57,643 nucleotides of DNA from Rubripirellula sp. (lineage in GTDB: Bacteria; Planctomycetota; Planctomycetia; Pirellulales; Pirellulaceae), in the NCBI GenBank assembly GCA_028823035.1, contig JAPKCI010000011.1, positions 1 to 57,643 of the forward strand. The letters are read 5' to 3'. Position 1 is the stretch's first letter, and each line of letters starts with the position of its first letter. Under the pieces are notes generated by a model. It did no database searches, had not been told where the DNA came from, and worked only from the letters and a program-made list of their open reading frames with translations. Below, in pieces: positions 8,619 to 49,630 of this stretch. Position numbers and translations under genes: made by a program.

Positions 8619-8993
8619 GATGTGGTTCCGGCAGGAGTTCAGGGGGGCCTTTCTGGGCAATCAAAAACGCATCTCAGCAGCACAGATTATTATTGATAAA
8701 CACCGCGTGGACAACTGCATTGGGAGCTGGTTTGGACAACAGATTGGTGGTGAACACTGTAGAGGGGGGGATCATCCGTTCGGATGTGAGGCAACCAGCG
8801 AGACGGTCGGAATTGGTAACTGAAATGGGGAAAACGGTGGTGCAATGCCAGACTATCCGCGGAATGGTTTTCAACTGTTTTGCAGCATTTACGAGGTAGG
8901 TTGAATCATGGTGAGTCGCAGGTTCGTGTCGCATCGATAGTTTGAACCCCTGCAGGATGGTCCGAGAATCAAGTAACATTGTGGCCAGATCCA
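8619..8993. other. Divergent intergenic region, no gene seen
   Basis: About 375 bases between the divergent DUF1080-GSDH and LarA-family genes. The open frames within it (8617-8823, 8674-8994, 8693-8899) are mutually antisense and featureless. It should contain both promoters; none was pinpointed. Confidence 0.45.
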
Positions 8994-10319
8994 ATGAAAG
9001 TGTCTTTGAACTATGGTCGATCGAATCTTGAGGTCACGTTGCCTTCGGGCGTGACTGTGGAGATGGTCCGTAAGCCCGCGATGCCATGTCTTTCAAATCC
9101 CCGCAAGGCGGTAACGACTGCGCTTGCTCGGCCAGTTCGTTCGGGAGATGTCCTGCAGGCAGGGCGTGAGTTCGTAGGGAATCGTTGGGCTGCCGGCGCG
9201 TCTTCTGCATGCATTGCCATTTGTGACATCACTCGGCCCGTACCAAACCATTTGTTCCTGCGGCCGATGGTTGAATGTCTGTTGGAAGCCGGACTCAAGC
9301 TGGACAACGTCAGCATTCTAGTCGCCACGGGCCTGCACCGACCGAATCAAGGGGCGGAGTTGGCTGAGCTGGTGGGGGATCGCTGGGTTTTGGAAAATGT
9401 CGCGGTTGAAAACCATGATGCGCGTAATGACGCCGATCATGTTTGCTTGGGAAAAACAGACACCCGGGGAACCGTTGTTCGAATTGATCGACGCTTTGTC
9501 GAGGCCGACCTGCGGATTGCTACCGGATTGGTCGAACCCCATTTCATGGCAGGTTATTCCGGCGGCAGAAAGGTGATTGCGCCCGGATTGGCACACGCAG
9601 AAACCATCACCACGTTTCATAGTTCGAGATTCATGGCGGACCCGGCTGCGGTAAGCTGTAATTTTGTCGGAAATCCTTTGCATGAAGAACAATTGGAAAT
9701 CGTCAAAATGCTTGGTGGTGCTCTCGCTTTAAACACTGTGATTGATGAGCACCGAAAACTTTCATTTGTCAACTTTGGCGAGATCATTGCCTCGCATGGT
9801 GAGGCGGTTGATTATGTACGCCAGTACTGCGAAGTACCCGTTGCGAGGCAATACAAGACGGTAGTGACGTCGGCGTCAGGGTATCCACTCGACAAAACCT
9901 ATTATCAGACCATCAAGGGAATGGTGGGAGCAATGAATATCCTTGCTCCTGGGGGTGACTTGATCATCGTCTCGGAGTGCAGCGAAGGATTGGGGTCTAG
10001 CGGATTCATCGAGTCACAACGCCGCTTGATTGAACTTGGCCCCGAGTCATTCTTGAAAGGCCTGCTCGCAAAGTCGCACGCTGACATTGATGAGTGGCAA
10101 ACCCAAATGCAACTCAAGCCGATGTCTGTCGGTAACGTTCACCTTCATTGTCCTAATCTGACGGATGAGCAATGGGAACTGACGGGAGTGGCAAGAGTGA
10201 ATTCGGTAGAAACCGCGATCTCCGAAAGTGTCATTCGGCAGGGCGATCGCCGAATCGCGGTGATACCGGAAGGTCCGTATGTTGCTCCCTACTTGCAGAA
10301 ACCAGGTGGCGGTGTCTGA
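8994..10319 (+). CDS. LarA-family (DUF2088) nickel-pincer racemase/epimerase-like protein
   Basis: 441 residues from the ATG at 8994 (a TTG at 8979 is in frame but less likely). The family includes lactate racemase LarA, which uses a Ni-pincer nucleotide bound to a lysine. The expected landmarks are all here: DITRP, the ATGLHRP histidine, the EPHFMAGYSGGRKVIAPG block with the pincer lysine at residue 193 and its His, FHSSRFM with the third His, and the GYPLDKTYYQTIKGM block with Gln and Lys that contact substrate. So the active site looks intact. Substrate cannot be told, since many homologues act on other 2-hydroxy acids. No larB, larC or larE cofactor genes are adjacent, so the cofactor must be made elsewhere. 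Confidence 0.85.
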   Translation: MKVSLNYGRSNLEVTLPSGVTVEMVRKPAMPCLSNPRKAVTTALARPVRSGDVLQAGREFVGNRWAAGASSACIAICDITRPVPNHLFLRPMVECLLEAGLKLDNVSILVATGLHRPNQGAELAELVGDRWVLENVAVENHDARNDADHVCLGKTDTRGTVVRIDRRFVEADLRIATGLVEPHFMAGYSGGRKVIAPGLAHAETITTFHSSRFMADPAAVSCNFVGNPLHEEQLEIVKMLGGALALNTVIDEHRKLSFVNFGEIIASHGEAVDYVRQYCEVPVARQYKTVVTSASGYPLDKTYYQTIKGMVGAMNILAPGGDLIIVSECSEGLGSSGFIESQRRLIELGPESFLKGLLAKSHADIDEWQTQMQLKPMSVGNVHLHCPNLTDEQWELTGVARVNSVETAISESVIRQGDRRIAVIPEGPYVAPYLQKPGGGV

Positions 10320-10461
10320 GCACGTTGATTGTTGCCCCGAGAGCGAGCGATTTCGTTCAACCTTGTCATTGCCCACGGGAACTTAGTTGTTCACGTGTAT
10401 TCAAAACCAGCAGAACAGTCAGAGAGTTCATCCCATTCCATCGGATTTACTCGTCGCTACA

Positions 10462-10476
10462 ATTCGTTTAACGAAT
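10462..10476. promoter_or_regulatory. 7-1-7 palindrome upstream of the ArsC-family gene
   Basis: ATTCGTT, a central T, then AACGAAT: a perfect 7-1-7 inverted repeat ending 37 bases before the ATG at 10514. The geometry is that of a dimeric repressor site. The base sequence does not match the Fur or PerR consensus. Operator function is inference. Confidence 0.45.
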
Positions 10477-10513
10477 AGTGTCAATCTAAACAATCTTTTG
10501 AGGAGTCAAACTG

Positions 10514-10867
10514 ATGGCAAAGAAAATCGGCTGGAGCTACCATCGCAAGGGCTGAACGTCATGCACTCGTGCGCAGGAGTTTCTTGCGCTTCGCAATCTG
10601 AAACCAGCTGAAGAAGTCGATGCAAAAAAAGTCCGTTACGGTGATGCCGAGGCGTTGGATCTGTTGACTGGCATGAGCAGCTTGATGGTTGCCAAGGGCA
10701 AAAAAGTGACGCGAGTGGACTTGCGTAATGATCGTCCAGACGACGCTGTATTGGTGGGCATGATGTTGGGACCCACCGGCAACTTGCGTGCTCCCACGCT
10801 CATGGTAGGAAAGAAGGTGATCGTTGGGTTCAACGAGGATTTGTACGGCGATGTTTTCGGCGACTGA
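10514..10867 (+). CDS. ArsC-family selenoprotein candidate (TGA read as selenocysteine)
   Basis: 117 residues if the in-frame TGA at 10553-10555 is decoded as selenocysteine. AGGAG (10501-10505) sits 8 bases before the ATG, a strong ribosome site that decides the start. The first 13 codons give MAKKIGWSYHRKG. Next come TGA and TSCTRAQEFL, exactly where ArsC/Spx-like thioredoxin-fold proteins carry the first Cys of a CxxC motif, so the redox motif becomes Sec14-x-x-Cys17. The frame then continues without interruption through a helix-rich middle and a GPTGNLRAPTLMVGKKVIVGF block with the cis-Pro-like strand of the fold, to a second TGA used as the real stop at 10865. A hairpin suited to a bacterial SECIS follows the first TGA. 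Families annotated as ArsC (seleno)proteins exist in planctomycetes. The likely role is a thiol/selenol redox enzyme; arsenate reduction is not implied. Without recoding only a 13-residue peptide, or a fragment from the ATG at 10655, would be made. Confidence 0.85.
10571..10589 (+). promoter_or_regulatory. Bacterial SECIS-like hairpin after the in-frame TGA
   Basis: GCGCAGGA (10571-10578) pairs with TCTTGCGC (10582-10589): 8 base pairs including one G-U wobble, closed by the loop GTT (10579-10581). The stem starts 15 bases after the TGA and the loop G is the 24th base after it. This fits the usual bacterial SECIS rule of a hairpin just downstream with G (then U) at the start of the apical loop. 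Confidence 0.7.
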
Positions 10868-10879
10868 ATCTGTCGACGA

Positions 10880-12088
10880 TCACTTGACCGGCAAGCATCG
10901 ATCCAAGGTCATCAGCGCGAATGCTGTTCCGTACGGTTGATGGTAATCATAGAGGGGATAGTCCCACCATGATCCATCTTTTTCCTGCCGATCCAGCATC
11001 AGCTTAGCGAGCATTCCCTGATACGGTGCCTGCTGTTCCTCAGGCAATAGTTTCAGGCTGAGTCCGGCGTAGTAGTGACCGTAATAATAGAAGTAGCCCG
11101 CGACTTGCATCCAGGATTCGTGTGGCACTGGTCGTTTTCGACCGATATCCAACCATCCGTTTCTCACGTACAGCCGGTAAAGCCAATTCTTGACTACCTT
11201 GTCCGTGATTTTGGTGTCTCCCCAGTAACGCAAGGCACAGTTGCAGCATTGGGATCGACCAAGGCTGCCGCCAGGGCGGTTAATGCCCCGCATCGGTTGG
11301 TATCGCAGATACTCGCCATAAAGGTAGGTAAAGTCGGGTTTCTGTTGGCGAAGCAAGGCGTCCATTGCGCGTTGAACCACTCGCTTGGGAGGCTCAATGC
11401 CGATTTCTTTTGCTTCGGCAAACGCGATGAGCACCGTTCCGTTGACAAAGCTGATCGATGACGAAGTCGGTTTTTGGGCTTCGTAACGAAAGTCATAGTA
11501 GCCCCACCCGCCATCAACCGATTCATAGCGTGTCAGCTTGTCGTACTGCATTTCAATGAGTTCGACAATTCGTTTTCGCAATGCTTTGTCGTCAGCATGC
11601 CGACCGTACATTCGCACCAGAGCTTGAATGGAATAGGCATGGCCCCAGACGTTATAAATGGCATCGCCCGTCGCGCGGCGAAGGGCTGGCAGATTCTCAA
11701 GCAGCCACGCCTCGCCCCGTTCAAGAGATTTGGTGGCGGCGGGGTTGGATGAACGGGTTTCGATGAGCGCTGAGATACACAATGCCGTCGTGGCGGTGCG
11801 GAAGGCGTGATGGGCACCAGGGACCGGCGCATAGATGTTCAGGCTCTTGGTTCGCGTCGGAGATCCCCATGATCCGTTTGTGTTTTGATCTGTGATCAGA
11901 AAGTCGATGCCACGGTTAACGGCGTCACGGATCGCAGCGGCGGTTGGCGCCTCGACTTCCGGCAGCGTTGGGTCCTGACTGAAGTCCAGTGCATCAGCAA
12001 GGATCCGCGAAGCTGCTTGGGGCCCGTCTGCCTGGCAAGGCAACGAAAACATAGTGCAGACGATCAGGGTGCTCAGAATTCGTTTCAT
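10880..12088 (-). CDS. Secreted terpene-cyclase-fold (squalene/prenyltransferase repeat) protein
   Basis: 402 residues with a signal peptide (MKRILSTLIVCTMFSLPCQA, then DG). The body has the alpha-alpha toroid repeats seen in prenyltransferase and squalene-oxidase-repeat proteins: AVNRGIDFLITDQNTNGSWG, ATTALCISALIE, YNVWGHAYSIQALVRMYG, VDGGWGYYDF, AMDALLRQQKPDFTYLYG, and a final QEKDGSWWDYPLYDYHQPYGTAFALMTL that resembles a QW motif. The DxDD or DDxxD catalytic motifs of real cyclases are not seen, and the protein is exported, so terpene cyclisation is unlikely. Such proteins are common in planctomycetes and uncharacterised. It ends 12 bases from the convergent ArsC-family gene. Confidence 0.8.
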   Translation of the reverse strand: MKRILSTLIVCTMFSLPCQADGPQAASRILADALDFSQDPTLPEVEAPTAAAIRDAVNRGIDFLITDQNTNGSWGSPTRTKSLNIYAPVPGAHHAFRTATTALCISALIETRSSNPAATKSLERGEAWLLENLPALRRATGDAIYNVWGHAYSIQALVRMYGRHADDKALRKRIVELIEMQYDKLTRYESVDGGWGYYDFRYEAQKPTSSSISFVNGTVLIAFAEAKEIGIEPPKRVVQRAMDALLRQQKPDFTYLYGEYLRYQPMRGINRPGGSLGRSQCCNCALRYWGDTKITDKVVKNWLYRLYVRNGWLDIGRKRPVPHESWMQVAGYFYYYGHYYAGLSLKLLPEEQQAPYQGMLAKLMLDRQEKDGSWWDYPLYDYHQPYGTAFALMTLDRCLPVK

Positions 12089-12290
12089 GTTGATTCTGTT
12101 CTAAACCTAAGAAGATGTGGTGGCGTTGTTTTGGCAACCAGAATGCCACTTCGGGAACCCCGCGAAATGTTGGCGGCCTCGCGGTTGGTGAGTGAGTCGT
12201 GGCTGACCTGCAGACCCGATTTGAGTACGCGTCTCGGTTCGCATGGCCCGAGACAATCCGGGATGGTGTCAATGGTTACGGAAAACAGAA

Positions 12291-13556
12291 TCACTTCTTT
12301 TTCGCCGGTTCCTTCTTTGCAGCTTCCTTTTCGGCGGACTTGAATACCAGTTGGCAGGTCATGGTCGGGGTGACTTTATGCTTGCCGGTTGAGAAACTGA
12401 CCAAGCAGTCATACTTGTTGGCTGCGTAGGGAATCGCCGACACGGACTTGACGGTTCCAGTTGCGGTGAAGCCTGTGACGCCGCTAATTTGGACCTCGCA
12501 TTTTTGCCCCGGTGTGACGAGCGCCAGGTGTTTTTGCTCCAAATCGACGCGGATCTGCAGTTTCCCGGGTGCAAGAACTGTGGCGATGACTTGAGGCCCG
12601 GTGACAGTGGCATCTTTTTTCATCAGCGATGGCTTGTCACTGAGTTTTCCACGCGTGAGTTTGCCATGCACAACGATGCCGTCGATGGGTGATGCGAGGG
12701 CGACCCGTTTGCGTTCCTCTTTGAGCTCTGCGAGTTTTTCCTGAGCCTTCTTAAATGCGTCACGCTTCTTCTGGATCTCGATCTGTCCTCGAGTATTTGA
12801 TGTAGTGAGTTCCCGAATTGCTTTGACGTGTGCCCGATCGGCTCGCTCGAATGTAGCGTTCTGTTCTGCGATAGTGCGGGGTAAGGTCTGCTTGATGGCA
12901 CGCTCAGTAACGATCTTGGTCCCCTCATGGCGGAATTGTGCAGACTCAACCGACCGCTTTGCCCGCTTCAGGACGATCTCCTCGGATTCCTCGGTCAAGT
13001 CATCCGCATCGTACATCTGTTGCAGTTGTTTCAGTTCTTCCGTTGCGTTTTCGAGTGAGGCGAGCGATGACTTGAGTGAATTCTTCTGAGTCATGACGGT
13101 GCGATCGCGATCAACTTTGACAAAATTGTTATAGATTTGTTGTGCGGCTTGCCAGGATCGCTCGGCGGCTGCCCGATCGAGCTTGCGGTTTGCAAGGAAC
13201 TGCTTGTGGTTGAATTCCTCATCGTCCATGGTCAGCTGAGAAAGACGCATTTCGATCTCGGCGTCCTTGAGTTTTTCAGCGATAGCCTTGCTATCGAACC
13301 AGACAACGTTTTGGCCAGCCTTGATCGTTGAACCATGAGGAACGATGCGTTCGATGGTGAGCGATGGAATCTGTTCGTTCCCGGTTGTGATTTCATGCGA
13401 GTTTACCGATTCCACCACCCCGTTAAGCTTGGTGACGTTGGGGGCTGAGTCGCTGCTAGAGTCTGGCTCGGATTGAGCATGCAGCCAGTTGGGCGATGCG
13501 AGCGAAGTGACCGTGAAAACTCCCGAGAAACAAAGAATGACGGCGAGGGAACGCAT
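12291..13556 (-). CDS. HlyD-type periplasmic adaptor / membrane fusion protein
   Basis: 421 residues from the ATG at 13556, which begins the signal peptide (MRSLAVILCFSGVFTVTSLAS…HAQS); the longer frame from 13607 adds 17 residues. The order is a first half-lipoyl strand (VNSHEITTGNEQIPSLTIERIVPHGSTIKAGQNVVWFD), a long alpha-helical coiled coil (about 85-280, rich in K, E, Q, R), and the returning lipoyl half (RVALASPIDGIVVHGKLTRGKL). A beta-barrel part follows (VIATVLAPGKLQIRVDLEQKHLALVTPGQKCEVQI) and a lysine-rich tail ends the protein. It would bridge an inner-membrane transporter and an outer-membrane exit, but no transporter gene is next to it. It stands alone on the minus strand. Confidence 0.8.
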   Translation of the reverse strand: MRSLAVILCFSGVFTVTSLASPNWLHAQSEPDSSSDSAPNVTKLNGVVESVNSHEITTGNEQIPSLTIERIVPHGSTIKAGQNVVWFDSKAIAEKLKDAEIEMRLSQLTMDDEEFNHKQFLANRKLDRAAAERSWQAAQQIYNNFVKVDRDRTVMTQKNSLKSSLASLENATEELKQLQQMYDADDLTEESEEIVLKRAKRSVESAQFRHEGTKIVTERAIKQTLPRTIAEQNATFERADRAHVKAIRELTTSNTRGQIEIQKKRDAFKKAQEKLAELKEERKRVALASPIDGIVVHGKLTRGKLSDKPSLMKKDATVTGPQVIATVLAPGKLQIRVDLEQKHLALVTPGQKCEVQISGVTGFTATGTVKSVSAIPYAANKYDCLVSFSTGKHKVTPTMTCQLVFKSAEKEAAKKEPAKKK

Positions 13557-13915
13557 GGATGGGAAACCTGTTGGTGGATCATGGAGTGCGGTAATCTGCT
13601 GGTTCATTGGGTAGATTCTAGTTCGACTTACTTGTCGATGGTGCTCAGAATCTAGCCGGTTGAATGGGTTTTGCCATTTCGAAACGGTGTTATCTTGGCT
13701 GTAACGGCCGATTTGGGTGCGATAGGGTCACTCAGACGGGCCCGTCTGGTACGCTGCGACCGCGTTGGTCGTATCCCCGCAGGCTGGTTCTAACGCAAGC
13801 AGATTAGCCCTCAAACTGAGACATTCAGCACTCAGAATGTTTAAGATTTCCGGTGCAGGTTTTTCCACTGGTCAAACGAGGGTGTTCCGATTGACCGCAA
13901 CCCAACACGTTTTTG
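13557..13915. other. Divergent intergenic region with a 16-bp palindrome
   Basis: About 360 bases between the HlyD-type gene and the hyi-like gene. No gene is supported. The notable feature is the palindrome at 13733-13748; CGACC and GGTCG at about 13757-13771 form another small inverted pair. Confidence 0.5.
13733..13748. promoter_or_regulatory. 16-bp perfect palindrome (possible operator)
   Basis: CAGACGGGCCCGTCTG is its own reverse complement and lies between two divergent genes, about 170 bases from each. A dimeric regulator site is one reading; a GC-rich hairpin is another. Confidence 0.35.
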
Positions 13916-14808: not shown

Positions 14809-15903
14809 ATGTCTGAACTTCCGCTCCGTTTACAGCGACTCAAAGATTCACTGAGTGAACTGGAAATCGATGCGATGCTGGTCACTGACGAGATCAATGT
14901 GCGGTACCTGTCGGGATTTACCGGTGACAGCAGTTCTCTGGTGGTTGCTGGTATCGGTACCAGCATTCTGAGTGACGGTCGATACACTGCGCAGATTGCA
15001 CAGCAATGCACCGGCATCGAGGTGATGATACGGACGTCCAGTCAACTTCTGCCCGATTTGACAAAATCGGCGTTGCAGGATTTGGGGCTGAAACGTGTCG
15101 GTATTGAAGCTGACAAGCTGACTTTGGCTGACTACCAGTTTCTGTCCACGACCTGTGGGGGGATCGAGTTCGTTTCAACGACGGGCGTGGTCGAAGCCTT
15201 GAGGATGATCAAAGATGAGTCTGAAATCGCAGCGACACGACGAGCCGTTGAGATTGCCGAACAGGTGTTTCAAGAGGTATGCCCCTCGCTCACCCGTCAA
15301 CACACCGAACTTGCCATCGCGCATGATCTCGAGCATCGGATGCGGTCGCTTGGCGCCCAAGGCTGCAGCTTTCCGCCGATTGTCGCTGCCGGTTCGGGAG
15401 GAGCCCTGCCGCACTACCACCCGCAGAATGTCGCGATTGACGATCACAAGACACTCTTGATCGACTGGGGTGCGAAATATCAGGGCTATGCGAGTGATTT
15501 GACGCGGACCCTGCATCGCCCAGGGGTAAGCGATGCGTTCAAGAGGGCTTACGAGGGCGTTTTGGAGGCGCAAATGGCGGCAATTGAGATGATTCGGCCC
15601 GGTGTTTTGGCGCGTGATGTGGATGCGGCCGCACGGCAGGTTCTCGACCGGCACGGCATTCTGGATGCCTTCAAGCACGGGCTTGGGCATGGTACCGGCC
15701 TACAAATTCATGAATCTCCCAGGATGTCACCGATCAGTGAAGAAATACTCGATACCGGCATGATTATTACCGTGGAACCGGGTGTTTATTATGATGGAGA
15801 CTTCGGAATCAGGCTTGAGGATGACATTTTGGTGACAGAATCTGGCCATGAGGTCTTAAGTAGCTTGCCTAAGGGACTCGATGATTGCCGATTGATCCTG
15901 TAA
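14809..15903 (+). CDS. Xaa-Pro aminopeptidase / M24 family dipeptidase
   Basis: 364 residues. The N-terminal creatinase-like domain (MSELPLRLQRLKDSLSELEIDAMLVTDEINVRYLSGFTGDSS…) is followed by the pita-bread M24 domain. All five dimetal ligands are visible: two Asp in LIDWGAKYQGYASDLTRT, His in HGLGHGTGLQIHE, Glu in ITVEPGVYY, and Glu in GIRLEDDILV. The substrate-binding PHYHP histidine is present too. It removes N-terminal residues linked to proline or splits Xaa-Pro dipeptides in the cytoplasm. It lies just before accB, matching the pepP/pepQ-efp-acc gene neighbourhood found in many bacteria. Confidence 0.93.
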   Translation: MSELPLRLQRLKDSLSELEIDAMLVTDEINVRYLSGFTGDSSSLVVAGIGTSILSDGRYTAQIAQQCTGIEVMIRTSSQLLPDLTKSALQDLGLKRVGIEADKLTLADYQFLSTTCGGIEFVSTTGVVEALRMIKDESEIAATRRAVEIAEQVFQEVCPSLTRQHTELAIAHDLEHRMRSLGAQGCSFPPIVAAGSGGALPHYHPQNVAIDDHKTLLIDWGAKYQGYASDLTRTLHRPGVSDAFKRAYEGVLEAQMAAIEMIRPGVLARDVDAAARQVLDRHGILDAFKHGLGHGTGLQIHESPRMSPISEEILDTGMIITVEPGVYYDGDFGIRLEDDILVTESGHEVLSSLPKGLDDCRLIL

Positions 15904-46208: not shown

Positions 46209-46468
46209 ATATCCAGATTGGATGAGGTCTTTTCTGGAAGTCATTCAGGCAGCAGCAGGGATGGGCAAGAAATGCGACTGTCGAAAACAGTTTTCGTTTG
46301 GTGGAATCCGGAGCGATCCGATGGGTTCGCCGGTTGGTGCCGCTTCCAGCCACGCTGGAAATAAATATACTTGTGTCGGTTCGAGAATCGTTGTTGGCGA
46401 GGATCGGGCGCAACCCGTTTGGTTGACTGGTTACAGTTGTTGATTTGTTGAGTGACAAAGGTTTGTTA

Positions 46469-49400
46469 ATGAATTGTGATGACAGAGCAGCAGGCAGTGG
46501 GTGTTTCACTCGTCGCTTTGTTTCCTCGCCTTTGCTGGTTGCACTTGCCGGGCTTGCTTTCTTAAGTACAAGCGTCCGAGCGGTTGAGCCTGTCGACTTC
46601 AATCGCGACATTCGTGTATTGTTGTCGGATAACTGTTTTGCCTGCCATGGCTTTGATGCGGCAGCACGAACTACCGATCTGCGTCTCGACACGCGTGAGG
46701 GGGCGACGGCGGATCTGGGAGGCTATTCAGCTCTGGTGCCAGGTGATGCAAAAAACAGCAGACTATTAAAGCGGATCATGTCGACTGATGAATCCATGCG
46801 TATGCCGCCTGGTGATGCACACAAAAAGCCACTGAGTTCAGAAGCGGTTGAGTTGATTCGGCGGTGGATCGACGAGGGTGCTGTGTGGGGAAAGCATTGG
46901 TCGTTTCAGCCACCTGTTGCGGCCACGATCCCTGCTGATGGTACTCACCCGATTGATCATTTCGTTAACAGAAGGTTGTTGGCGAAGGACAGGCAATTGT
47001 CGCCCAGAGCTGCTACGCACACTCTTGCCCGTCGCATTGCGTTCGATTTGACCGGTCTGCCACCCACTGCTGCTGATGTGGCGGCCCTGGCCGAGCAACC
47101 AACGCCGGCAGAGTGGTCGCGTTGGATACAAGGGCTATTGGATTCTCCGCACTTCGGTGAACGGATGGCAATGTGGTGGCTTGACGGTGCGCGCTACAGT
47201 GACACCGATGGGTTTCAAGCGGATGCAACACGGCAGAATTGGCCGTGGCGTGATTGGGTTGTTGCAGCGTTCAATCGAAATATGCCATTTGATGATTTCA
47301 CAATCGAGCAATTCGCTGGTGATTTGTTGCCCGACGCCAGTGATGAACAGCGTCTTGCGACCTGTTTTCATCGGAACCATATGCACAATGGCGAGGGCGG
47401 TCGGGACCCTGCTGAGTCGCGGGTCGATTATGTTCTGGATCGAACCAATACAATGGGGACGCTGTGGTTGGGACTGACGTTAGGTTGCACACAATGCCAC
47501 GATCATAAGTTTGATCCGATTTCACAGCAGGCCTACTATAGCTTGACCGCCTATTTCAACAGTATTGATGAGAATGGTAGTGCCGGTGGCGGCGCTAAGC
47601 CGTTTCTCAAATACCGGTCACCACTTGCCAAACAAGTGGTTGATGAAGCTGCGTTGGTGCTTGTCGAAATGAAGAAACGGCTGGACGCGGTCAAAACACA
47701 AGCCGAGCCTGAGTTTGCAATTAAGCTCGATCACATGATCGCTGCTGCGAGGGATTCATTCCAGCCTTGGACGATTGTTCTACCAGCTGCGCTTCGGTCC
47801 ACTGAGGGTACGGTGTTGTCGGCTGATGGCAACGGAATGGTAACCTCCAACGACAGCGGCAAGGTGCAGGACGATTTCATTGTCGAGGTACCATCGGATG
47901 CGATTGATCGAATCTCCGGAATCCGACTGGAAGTATTCGCCGATCCAAAACAGCATGATGGAAAGTATTCCTATGCGAGTACTGGTGAGTTCATCTTGAC
48001 CAATGCTAAGTTACAGCTACGCAGTCGGGACAACGCTTCGGTAACAGATGTTGCCCTAATTAGAGCTACGGCCAGTATTGAGGGGAAAGGTGAGGATACT
48101 AAGTATGGCAGGGCGTCGGGAACTTTGGACGATGATCCGCGGACGGGCTGGACGACTCGAACCAAGCCCGTTGAACCGGTTCAGGTGATCGTGTTCGAAC
48201 TTGCTGAGCCAATCGTGCTCAGCAGTGATTCAACACTTGATGTGGTGCTGATGCAGCGGTCGTTGGCGCCCCGTGAATTAATCGGACGATTCCGACTCAG
48301 CGTCACGAACCAGCGAGGTCAAGCAGTCAGGTCGCTGGGGCCAATGCCGATGGAACGCTTAGCCCAATCGGTTGTAGAACACGAAGCTGCTGATCCTGAA
48401 AATAAGTACACGGTCGCCGATTTGCCGGGGGATCTGCGGCGACAGTTGCTAGATCAATTTCTCAGTGATTTTAGTCCCTGGGAAATGGCTTCACAGCAGC
48501 ACGGAATAGCTTCACGACAAGTCAATGATGCGAATAAATCCGCGGGTGATATGAACGTCACAGTGTTATCGGAGCGGCCAGAGGCGAGGAAGACGCATGT
48601 TTTAGTACGAGGGGTCTGGGACCAGCATGGTGAAGAAGTGCGGCCGGCAGTGTTGTCCGCCGTCTTGCCAGCGCCGCCCGAGACTGTCCGGTCGCGACTT
48701 GAGTTGGCAAAGTGGGTTGTTTCTAGACAGAATCCATTGACTGCTCGGGTAATTGTCAACCACGTTTGGCAGCTGTTCTTTGGTTCCGGTTTGGTTCGAA
48801 CGCCTAATGATTTTGGATCACAGGGTGAAATGCCAACGCATCCCGACCTACTTGATTGGCTTGCGGTTGACTTCATGGAACACGATTGGGATTTCAAACA
48901 TCTGGTGCGACAGATTGTGACAAGCCGGACTTATCAACAGGATAGTCGGGTTACTGCTGAATTGCTGATTCAGGACCCAGAGAACCGACTGCTGGCACGT
49001 GGGGCACGTTTTAGGTTGCCGAGTTGGATGATTCGTGATTCCGCTTTGGCTTCCAGCGGATTGCTGAACCCAGCGGTGGGTGGGCCGCCGATGTTTGCGT
49101 ATCAGCCGCAAGGTGTCTGGCAGGATCAGTTCATGGGGCGATTCACGTACAAACCGACGTTAGGGCCTGGTCAGTATCGGCGTACGCTGTACACGTTTTG
49201 GCGTCGCAGTAGTTCACCAACGTTTCTGTTCGACTCTGCAATGCGGCGGACCTGCGAAGTGATCCCCAGACTAACCAATACGCCTTTGCACGCACTGACA
49301 TTGTTGAACGATGTAACGGCCTTGGAGTCTGCTCGCACTTTGGCCGAGAGAGGCTGGCAGAACAATCCTGAGATGACGGCAGAGTCGCGTATCAAGGCAA

Positions 49401-49630
49401 TGTTTCAGACGGTTCTCTGCAGGAAGCCGACGCAGCGCGAGTTCGCTGTATTGATGCGGGAACACGAAATGACGCATCGTTATTACGAACAGGACGTTGC
49501 GGCTGCATTGGCTGTGACGTCGGTCGGGCAACTTCCGGATGTTGATAACGCAAGGGCGATAGATGTCGCTTCTGAAATGCTGATTGCGAGTTTGATTTTG
49601 AATCTGGACGAGAGCATCACTCATGAATAA
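46469..49630 (+). CDS. PSCyt1-DUF1549-DUF1553 (PSD1) protein, module 2
   Basis: 1053 residues from the ATG at 46469 with AAAGG about 8 bases upstream. After a signal peptide (…[20 protein letters not shown], then VEP) come the cytochrome C domain (C56-FA-C59-H60, [13 protein letters not shown]), DUF1549 ([65 protein letters not shown]), a carbohydrate-binding-like middle part (about 410-620) and DUF1553 ([41 protein letters not shown]). The stop overlaps the next gene's ATG by 8 bases, so the two are translationally coupled. Confidence 0.93.
   Translation: [1053 protein letters not shown]

Follow-up and report, generated by a model that had tools for sequence, protein, structure and literature searches.

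The window, by which we mean the whole 57,643-nucleotide stretch of Rubripirellula sp. DNA that was analysed, contains on its forward strand a small gene that very probably encodes a selenoprotein of the ArsC family. The features of this gene, together with the gene that lies upstream of it, are as follows.

8979-10319, + strand: LarA-like (lactate racemase) gene that precedes the predicted selenoprotein gene.
10500-10505, + strand: Shine-Dalgarno-like GAGGAG, 8 bases upstream of the ATG at 10514, read from the sequence.
10514-10867, + strand: predicted selenoprotein gene of 117 residues, an ArsC family (seleno)protein by its matches to NF041106 and PF03960.
10553-10555, + strand: in-frame TGA, very probably Sec, residue 14 and first place of the motif U-T-S-C, assigned from the TGA/Cys alignment and the Sec machinery of the same genome.
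10562-10564, + strand: Cys17 (TGC), presumed resolving Cys of Sec-x-x-Cys, invariant in 45 of 45 aligned genes.
10571-10589, + strand: SECIS-like hairpin with an 8-bp stem and a 3-nt loop, assigned from folding, the criteria of a published model and conservation.
10865-10867, + strand: TGA, an ordinary stop, read from the sequence and the choice of start and frame.

From the ATG at 10514, a start that is also chosen by a simple start-picking rule, 13 codons ending in HRKG lead to the TGA at 10553-10555, after which the frame continues with TSCTRAQEFL. There are 103 sense codons between this TGA and the stop TGA at 10865-10867, and reading the first TGA as U gives a product of 117 residues with the motif U14-T-S-C17. 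A first-pass annotation of this DNA had described an AGGAG ribosome site, the run HRKG-TGA-TSCTRAQEFL and a second TGA, all of which are present in the sequence where that annotation placed them; its further suggestion, that the same gene uses TGA both as Sec and as stop, is supported for these two triplets. A standard gene caller that treats every TGA as a stop would presumably lose or truncate the gene. Over both strands of the window, 38 TGA triplets have an upstream Met and at least 80 open codons downstream, and two of the 38, those at 10553 and 47049, combine a UxxC/CxxU motif with a SECIS-like hairpin whose energy is at most -5 kcal/mol. The TGA at 47049 (+ strand), which has UxxC and such a hairpin, sits in a frame inside the span of a large ORF (46445-49630), and its combination of the two is probably due to chance.

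Against the NCBIfam model NF041106 ("ArsC family (seleno)protein") the product scores 132.2 bits (cut-off 85, E 1e-38); Pfam ArsC (PF03960) gives 30.1 bits (cut-off 24). Seven other NCBIfam models that appear at E up to 1, Spx, glutaredoxin and UXX-star among these, score far below their cut-offs. Since the match to NF041106 spans positions 1-107 of the 107 in the profile, and thereby residues before and after the TGA, the reading frame on either side can be taken as one protein. An order-level sample of 396 genomes was searched with the same profile at E 0.001; 53 genomes gave a match, 44 of them over the cut-off, and a single TGA falls within the match in 37 of these 44, whereas the other 7 contain none. 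These 44 members, which include the window gene, were aligned with a gene from Rhodopirellula sp. MED661 (L059) that is 83% identical to that of the window, giving 45 genes. L104-L107 (weak, below the cut-off and with no tblastn match) and five further weak matches were excluded from the alignment, and L060, which is identical with the contig of G113/L097 in length and in the protein encoded, was excluded from the counts. The starts of homologues were chosen by a simple rule and are doubtful for L063, L068 and L089. All 45 members match NF041106, the model with which 44 of them were found.

Codon 14 is TGA in 38 of the aligned genes, TGC in 5 and TGT in 2; that is, the same codon is TGA in 37 further genes from other assemblies, and homologues with Cys exist at the same position. 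The motif Sec/Cys-x-x-Cys thus stands at the N-terminal helix with U in 38 members and C in seven, in agreement with the earlier proposal that the TGA occupies the place of the first Cys of a CxxC motif. The recurrence of this TGA in 37 genes of other assemblies, together with the seven Cys counterparts, therefore excludes a sequencing error in practice. In a phylum-level sample of 392 genomes, which shares at least G000 and G083 with the order-level sample, 80 genomes exceed the NF041106 cut-off with 81 matches, of which 70 have one TGA and 11 have none, the matches being counted by hand and the TGA scored for its presence and not its place. As judged from these profile matches, the NF041106 family is common in the phylum. 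One genome of this sample, G440, has two NF041106 genes over the cut-off, of which only one contains a TGA, and may hold coexisting Sec and Cys copies. A tblastn search of a phage collection gave no match at E 0.01.

An AlphaFold2 model, obtained from the 45-row alignment with Cys at position 14, has a mean pLDDT of 93.3 and a pTM of 0.86 and places residue 14 between a strand (5-10) and a helix (15-26). A profile search of PDB sequences returned Spx at E 6e-9 and the ArsC-family protein 2m46 at E 1e-8, Spx and Spx-like chains lead the Foldseek matches (E 2e-4 to 9e-4), and VIA-align superimposes the model on Spx 3ihq with Z 8.9 and rmsd 2.7 over 88 aligned residues. The VIA-align Z-scores are 6.7-8.9 for Spx; they are little lower for glutaredoxins/NrdH and glutathione transferases, which reach 7.5 and 7.6, respectively, and a Z under 8 may, as the tool warns, reflect no more than a common arrangement. 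From the model and these searches, the protein is confidently predicted to be a thioredoxin-fold relative of Spx and ArsC. The ArsC/Spx-like reading of the first-pass annotation holds up and can be refined, in that the nearest solved structures by profile search, Foldseek and VIA-align are Spx and Spx-like proteins, not true arsenate reductases. Invariant in all 45 members are W7, R11, U/C14, C17, L24, G62, G86, P87, G89, L91, R92, A93, P94 and G105, and P94 presumably occupies the usual cis-proline place of the thioredoxin fold.

Two more specific roles need to be weighed for the protein. That it is a classical glutaredoxin-dependent arsenate reductase, with Sec in place of the catalytic Cys, would accord with the Pfam ArsC match over the cut-off, with the name "arsenate reductase-like" that the family carries in the literature, and with matches at E 1e-3 of NF007456 to 4 and of TIGR00014 to 2 of the 45 members. 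We consider this unlikely, however, as the window protein is absent from the hits of both NF007456 and TIGR00014 at E up to 1, the family shares with Spx a pair of the form U/C-x-x-C, and what we take to be the third Arg of the triad in the E. coli plasmid enzyme aligns with a Phe of the family. The second possibility is an Spx-like redox switch, which would bind the alpha subunit of RNA polymerase and sense oxidants via Sec-x-x-Cys. Spx structures are the best matches in sequence and in fold, CxxC is also found in Spx, and TIGR01617 (Spx/MgsR) matches 42 of the 45 members at E 1e-3 (best 5e-12), with NF002459 matching 32; yet the window protein reaches 18.6 bits with TIGR01617 against a cut-off of 75.05, and 18-19 bits with Spx models whose cut-offs are 123 and 152. 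In addition, the loop around Gly52 of Spx, which we take to be the contact with the alpha subunit, is four residues shorter here in the profile alignment and its Gly is not conserved, and the range of Z-scores to Spx overlaps with that to glutaredoxins and NrdH, so that a polymerase-binding switch seems improbable as well. Given the shortened Spx loop and the absence of the window protein from the TIGR00014 matches, the sequence comparisons and the model point to a Sec-x-x-Cys selenol-disulfide oxidoreductase as the most likely function, with arsenate reduction and Spx-like polymerase binding less likely.

It had been predicted that a genome with this gene must have selA, selB, selC and selD and that none of them lies in the window. 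All were found in the genome to which the window belongs (7.4 Mb, 523 contigs, 99.6% complete), where the matches that pass the cut-off are on contigs C325 and C398 and not on C99, the window's own contig. On C325 the order is selB-selA-selD (10362-12215, 12287-13621 and 14836-15723), all three exceeding their curated cut-offs. A tRNA-Sec (anticodon TCA) is encoded at C398:31183 and scores 70.3 bits against a cut-off of 47, so the genome has tRNA-Sec, SelA, SelB and SelD. The selD on C325 of this genome (G000; L027:340-2496) forms the C-terminal part of a 718-residue protein, the N-terminal part of which looks, by eye, like an FAD/NAD-dependent oxidoreductase; the SelD part carries Cys (QCRGCGCKVG), not Sec.

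The machinery was surveyed in 65 genomes, 44 with an over-cut-off member of the family and 21 without. A tRNA-Sec over the cut-off is present in 40 of the 44 (in G073 only at 51.9 bits) versus 3 of the 21, and selA over the cut-off in 37 of the 44 versus 6 of the 21, where the 21 comprise 20 genomes listed among 343 non-matching ones, which are not a random sample, and G255, which has a weak match. In G015, G078 and G093 a selA-like gene is found just over the cut-off and no tRNA-Sec was found; because these genes reach only 274-280 bits and no tRNA-Sec accompanies them, they may be SelA paralogues, perhaps of other function. Among the 37 TGA-bearing genomes of the order-level sample, tRNA-Sec exceeds the cut-off in 34 and selA in 32. 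A search for selB, run as a gap check on 19 of the 65 genomes, found this gene in the gap genomes G335, G026, G367 and G028, and at least one of selA, tRNA-Sec and selB is over the cut-off in 36 of the 37 TGA-bearing genomes. The one left, G285 (91% complete), has no selA, tRNA-Sec or selB over the cut-off. G231 (99% complete and TGA-bearing) has tRNA-Sec alone over the cut-off, with neither selA nor selB; in its relatives G237 and G341 some 10 kb separate selA from tRNA-Sec, and since the equivalent place of selA in G231 would fall off the contig, the coordinates suggest that there is likely an assembly gap at that place. Six of the seven Cys-bearing genomes have selB over the cut-off (G014 as a fragment just over it), and the Cys forms are therefore not simply a result of the loss of Sec decoding.

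The first-pass annotation, correct as to the gene, made no mention of the SECIS-like hairpin at 10571-10589. This hairpin begins 15 nt after the TGA, its loop (GUU) lies 23 nt after the TGA, and its folding energy is -10.5 kcal/mol. The bacterial SECIS model, as set out in the accessible part of a recent review, has a loop of 3-9 nt with G in its first two places, an upper stem of 4-16 bp, a spacing of 16-37 nt from the UGA and an MFE of -7.5 or lower (PMC13188914). With a loop of 3, a stem of 8, a spacing of 23 and the energy given above, the hairpin fits that model as scored by our own script, not bSECISearch. An equally stable hairpin at such spacing follows 18 of the 2346 TGA triplets of the window in any frame or strand, the TGA at 10553 included, and 4 of 2000 versions of this stretch recoded with synonymous codons form one too.

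The hairpin is further defined by comparison among family members. With positions numbered from the T of the TGA (position 1), the core pairs run from 21-35 to 25-31, and all five are formed in 38 of 38 TGA genes versus 0 of 7 Cys genes. Taken singly, the core pairs are formed in 1, 1, 2, 2 and 6 of the seven Cys genes, which individually keep 0, 1, 1, 1, 2, 3 and 4 pairs. The gene with four of the five, L067, has a G-G mismatch at 22-34, and its near-complete stem is perhaps a relic. Within the hairpin of the TGA genes, all 36 Glu codons are GAG and all 38 Leu codons are CTT, when over the same gene set the codon entropy is 1.0 bits for Glu and 2.34 bits for Leu; outside the hairpin, invariant residues (Gly, Leu, Arg and Ala in columns 82, 87, 88 and 89 of the alignment) are encoded by four to six codons. 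The frozen Glu and Leu codons therefore indicate that more than protein-only selection acts on the hairpin stretch. The mean folding z-score is -1.15 for the 38 TGA genes and +0.59 for the 7 Cys genes, and it is 0.0, by base shuffling, for the window's own 60-nt stretch. An energy of -7.5 kcal/mol or lower is reached by the bare upper stem in 6 of the 38 TGA genes and by a 48-nt stretch in 34 of them. At the closing pair 26-30, both sides have changed in 2 of the 38 TGA genes and pairing fails in 3. Because the stem is nearly invariant, covariation hardly supports it, and with so little variation it was set aside as proof of the stem. A search of 10400-10900 against Rfam gave no SECIS family and two unrelated matches, both far below their gathering scores. 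The hairpin was also considered as a motif shared across the genome and rejected as such, since one exact copy (the site at 10571) and three with one mismatch make four occurrences, and a reversed control pattern also has four.

With these data in hand, readings of the TGA other than Sec are very improbable. A pseudogene or sequencing error, with the TGA a true stop or a misread TGC/TGT and the remainder decaying, might be suspected from the TGC or TGT of seven homologues but is scarcely credible against the same TGA in 37 genes of other assemblies, a downstream frame that is open and retains invariant residues, and a full hairpin tied to TGA genes only. Decoding of the TGA as another amino acid (Trp, Gly), or its suppression, found no point in its support and is no more credible, as the gene ends at its second TGA, the site is Cys in all seven TGA-less members, and Sec machinery is present in the genome. 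The TGA at 10553-10555 is very probably read as selenocysteine within a predicted redox site, and the claim that an ArsC-family selenoprotein is hidden here by an in-frame TGA is supported, none of the tests set to refute it having come out against it.

In a tree of the 45 members built with the Sec/Cys site masked, at least three changes between Sec and Cys are needed, and well-supported branches force three; L095, a Cys row, has a long branch and its placement is unsure. The Cys-form members (L061, L063, L065, L067, L069, L072 and L095) are all without the full hairpin. The Gln place is kept in 38 of 38 TGA members and holds another residue in 6 of 7 Cys members, and the Glu place is kept in 36 of 38 and holds another residue in 7 of 7. 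We lean slightly towards the view that the SECIS hairpin, and not the protein, freezes part of the run Ala-Gln-Glu-Phe-Leu-Ala, such that a swap from Sec to Cys breaks the hairpin and Gln-Glu drifts. If this is the case, the NF041106 family would be a natural experiment on the price that a protein pays for a SECIS and on the reasons for abandoning Sec. It is of mild novelty that Sec/Cys switching recurs, with breakdown of the hairpin, and that most of the genomes concerned have retained Sec-decoding genes. A hairpin that is kept with Sec and broken with Cys offers a set of sequences for testing how bacterial SECIS elements are recognised in Planctomycetota. A limited search of open-access literature, with correspondingly little weight, turned up no account of the NF041106 SECIS hairpin, nor of planctomycetes that switch between Sec and Cys.

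Neighbouring reading frames of at least 90 residues were grouped by single linkage, many of the loci being short. With 10 loci, the largest cluster is made up of frames that lie for the most part antisense to the selenoprotein gene; the next two (8 and 6 loci) are of proteins at varying distance and strand. The LarA-like gene is similarly placed in three close relatives (L059, L091 and L097), and it and further flanking genes are shared by 4-5 loci, every one from a close relative. At the depth tested, conservation of the neighbourhood goes no further than such relatives, and no neighbour points to a partner or substrate. A perfect inverted repeat, ATTCGTTTAACGAAT, at 10462-10476 ends 37 bases upstream of the start codon, and no such repeat is present at five relatives checked.

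On the strength of the open frame, a TGA/Cys site and a hairpin that are both conserved, the genes of the Sec machinery and the predicted fold, we are highly confident that this is a stand-alone small selenoprotein gene in which Sec is inserted at a UGA via a SECIS element to give a Sec-x-x-Cys redox product. The ribosome would start at the ATG at 10514, and the hairpin at 10571-10589 would recruit SelB with Sec-tRNA(Sec) at the UGA at 10553-10555, where selenocysteine would be inserted in place of termination; the second UGA (10865-10867) would then terminate translation. The 117-residue product would adopt a thioredoxin-like fold of the Spx/ArsC group in which Sec14-x-x-Cys17 starts helix 1. 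In the redox reaction that we propose, Sec14 would attack a substrate and Cys17 would resolve the selenenylsulfide.

Several known systems resemble this gene and its product. Spx of Bacillus subtilis (1z3e, 3gfk and 3ihq) has the fold and the CxxC place of the window protein and provides the best PDB matches, but Spx has Cys and a longer loop, whereas the window protein has a predicted Sec and falls well below the Spx family cut-offs. The UXX-star glutaredoxin-like selenoproteins (NF041212 and kin) have an N-terminal Sec motif that aligns with window residues 9-54, and 17 of the 45 members match at E 1e-3, but the window protein scores 16.1 bits against a cut-off of 66. ArsC-like selenoproteins have been described, as the first-pass annotation stated, in deltaproteobacteria (PMC1794560) and in an ocean metagenome (PMC2398784), and UxxS arsenate reductases are reported as well (PMC1088965), to go by the accessible portions of these papers. 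Its mention of planctomycetes among the sources was not confirmed in the texts consulted: ArsC is not named in the accessible main-text sections of a paper describing planctomycete genomes that decode Sec and encode selenoproteins (PMC4807772), and the accessible sections of PMC12013277 held nothing on the NF041106 family. The "Arsenate reductase 2" with UxxC, listed under cd03032 in the Global Ocean Sampling table (PMC2398784, in the excerpt available), shares the ArsC superfamily and UxxC with the window protein, a likeness by description; from this, and from the citation of Zhang and Gladyshev 2008 as the source of NF041106 in the available excerpt of PMC13188914, we infer that it is the NF041106 family. 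That excerpt, of a 2026 review, gives NF041106 in its Table 1 as "Arsenate reductase-like protein" with UxxC, a family predicted with high confidence, and the same name and motif appear in the available excerpt of a 2022 review (PMC9312934). NF041106 (ArsC_rel_Se_1) is matched by the window protein at full length and over the cut-off, with UxxC and Sec/Cys at the same place, and no difference was found. The family is thus already known, and the window gene, from a genome close to Rhodopirellula/Rubripirellula, is a further member and not a new kind; to a family catalogued as predicted only, by the accessible text of PMC13188914, it adds a clear member with a SECIS defined by comparison.
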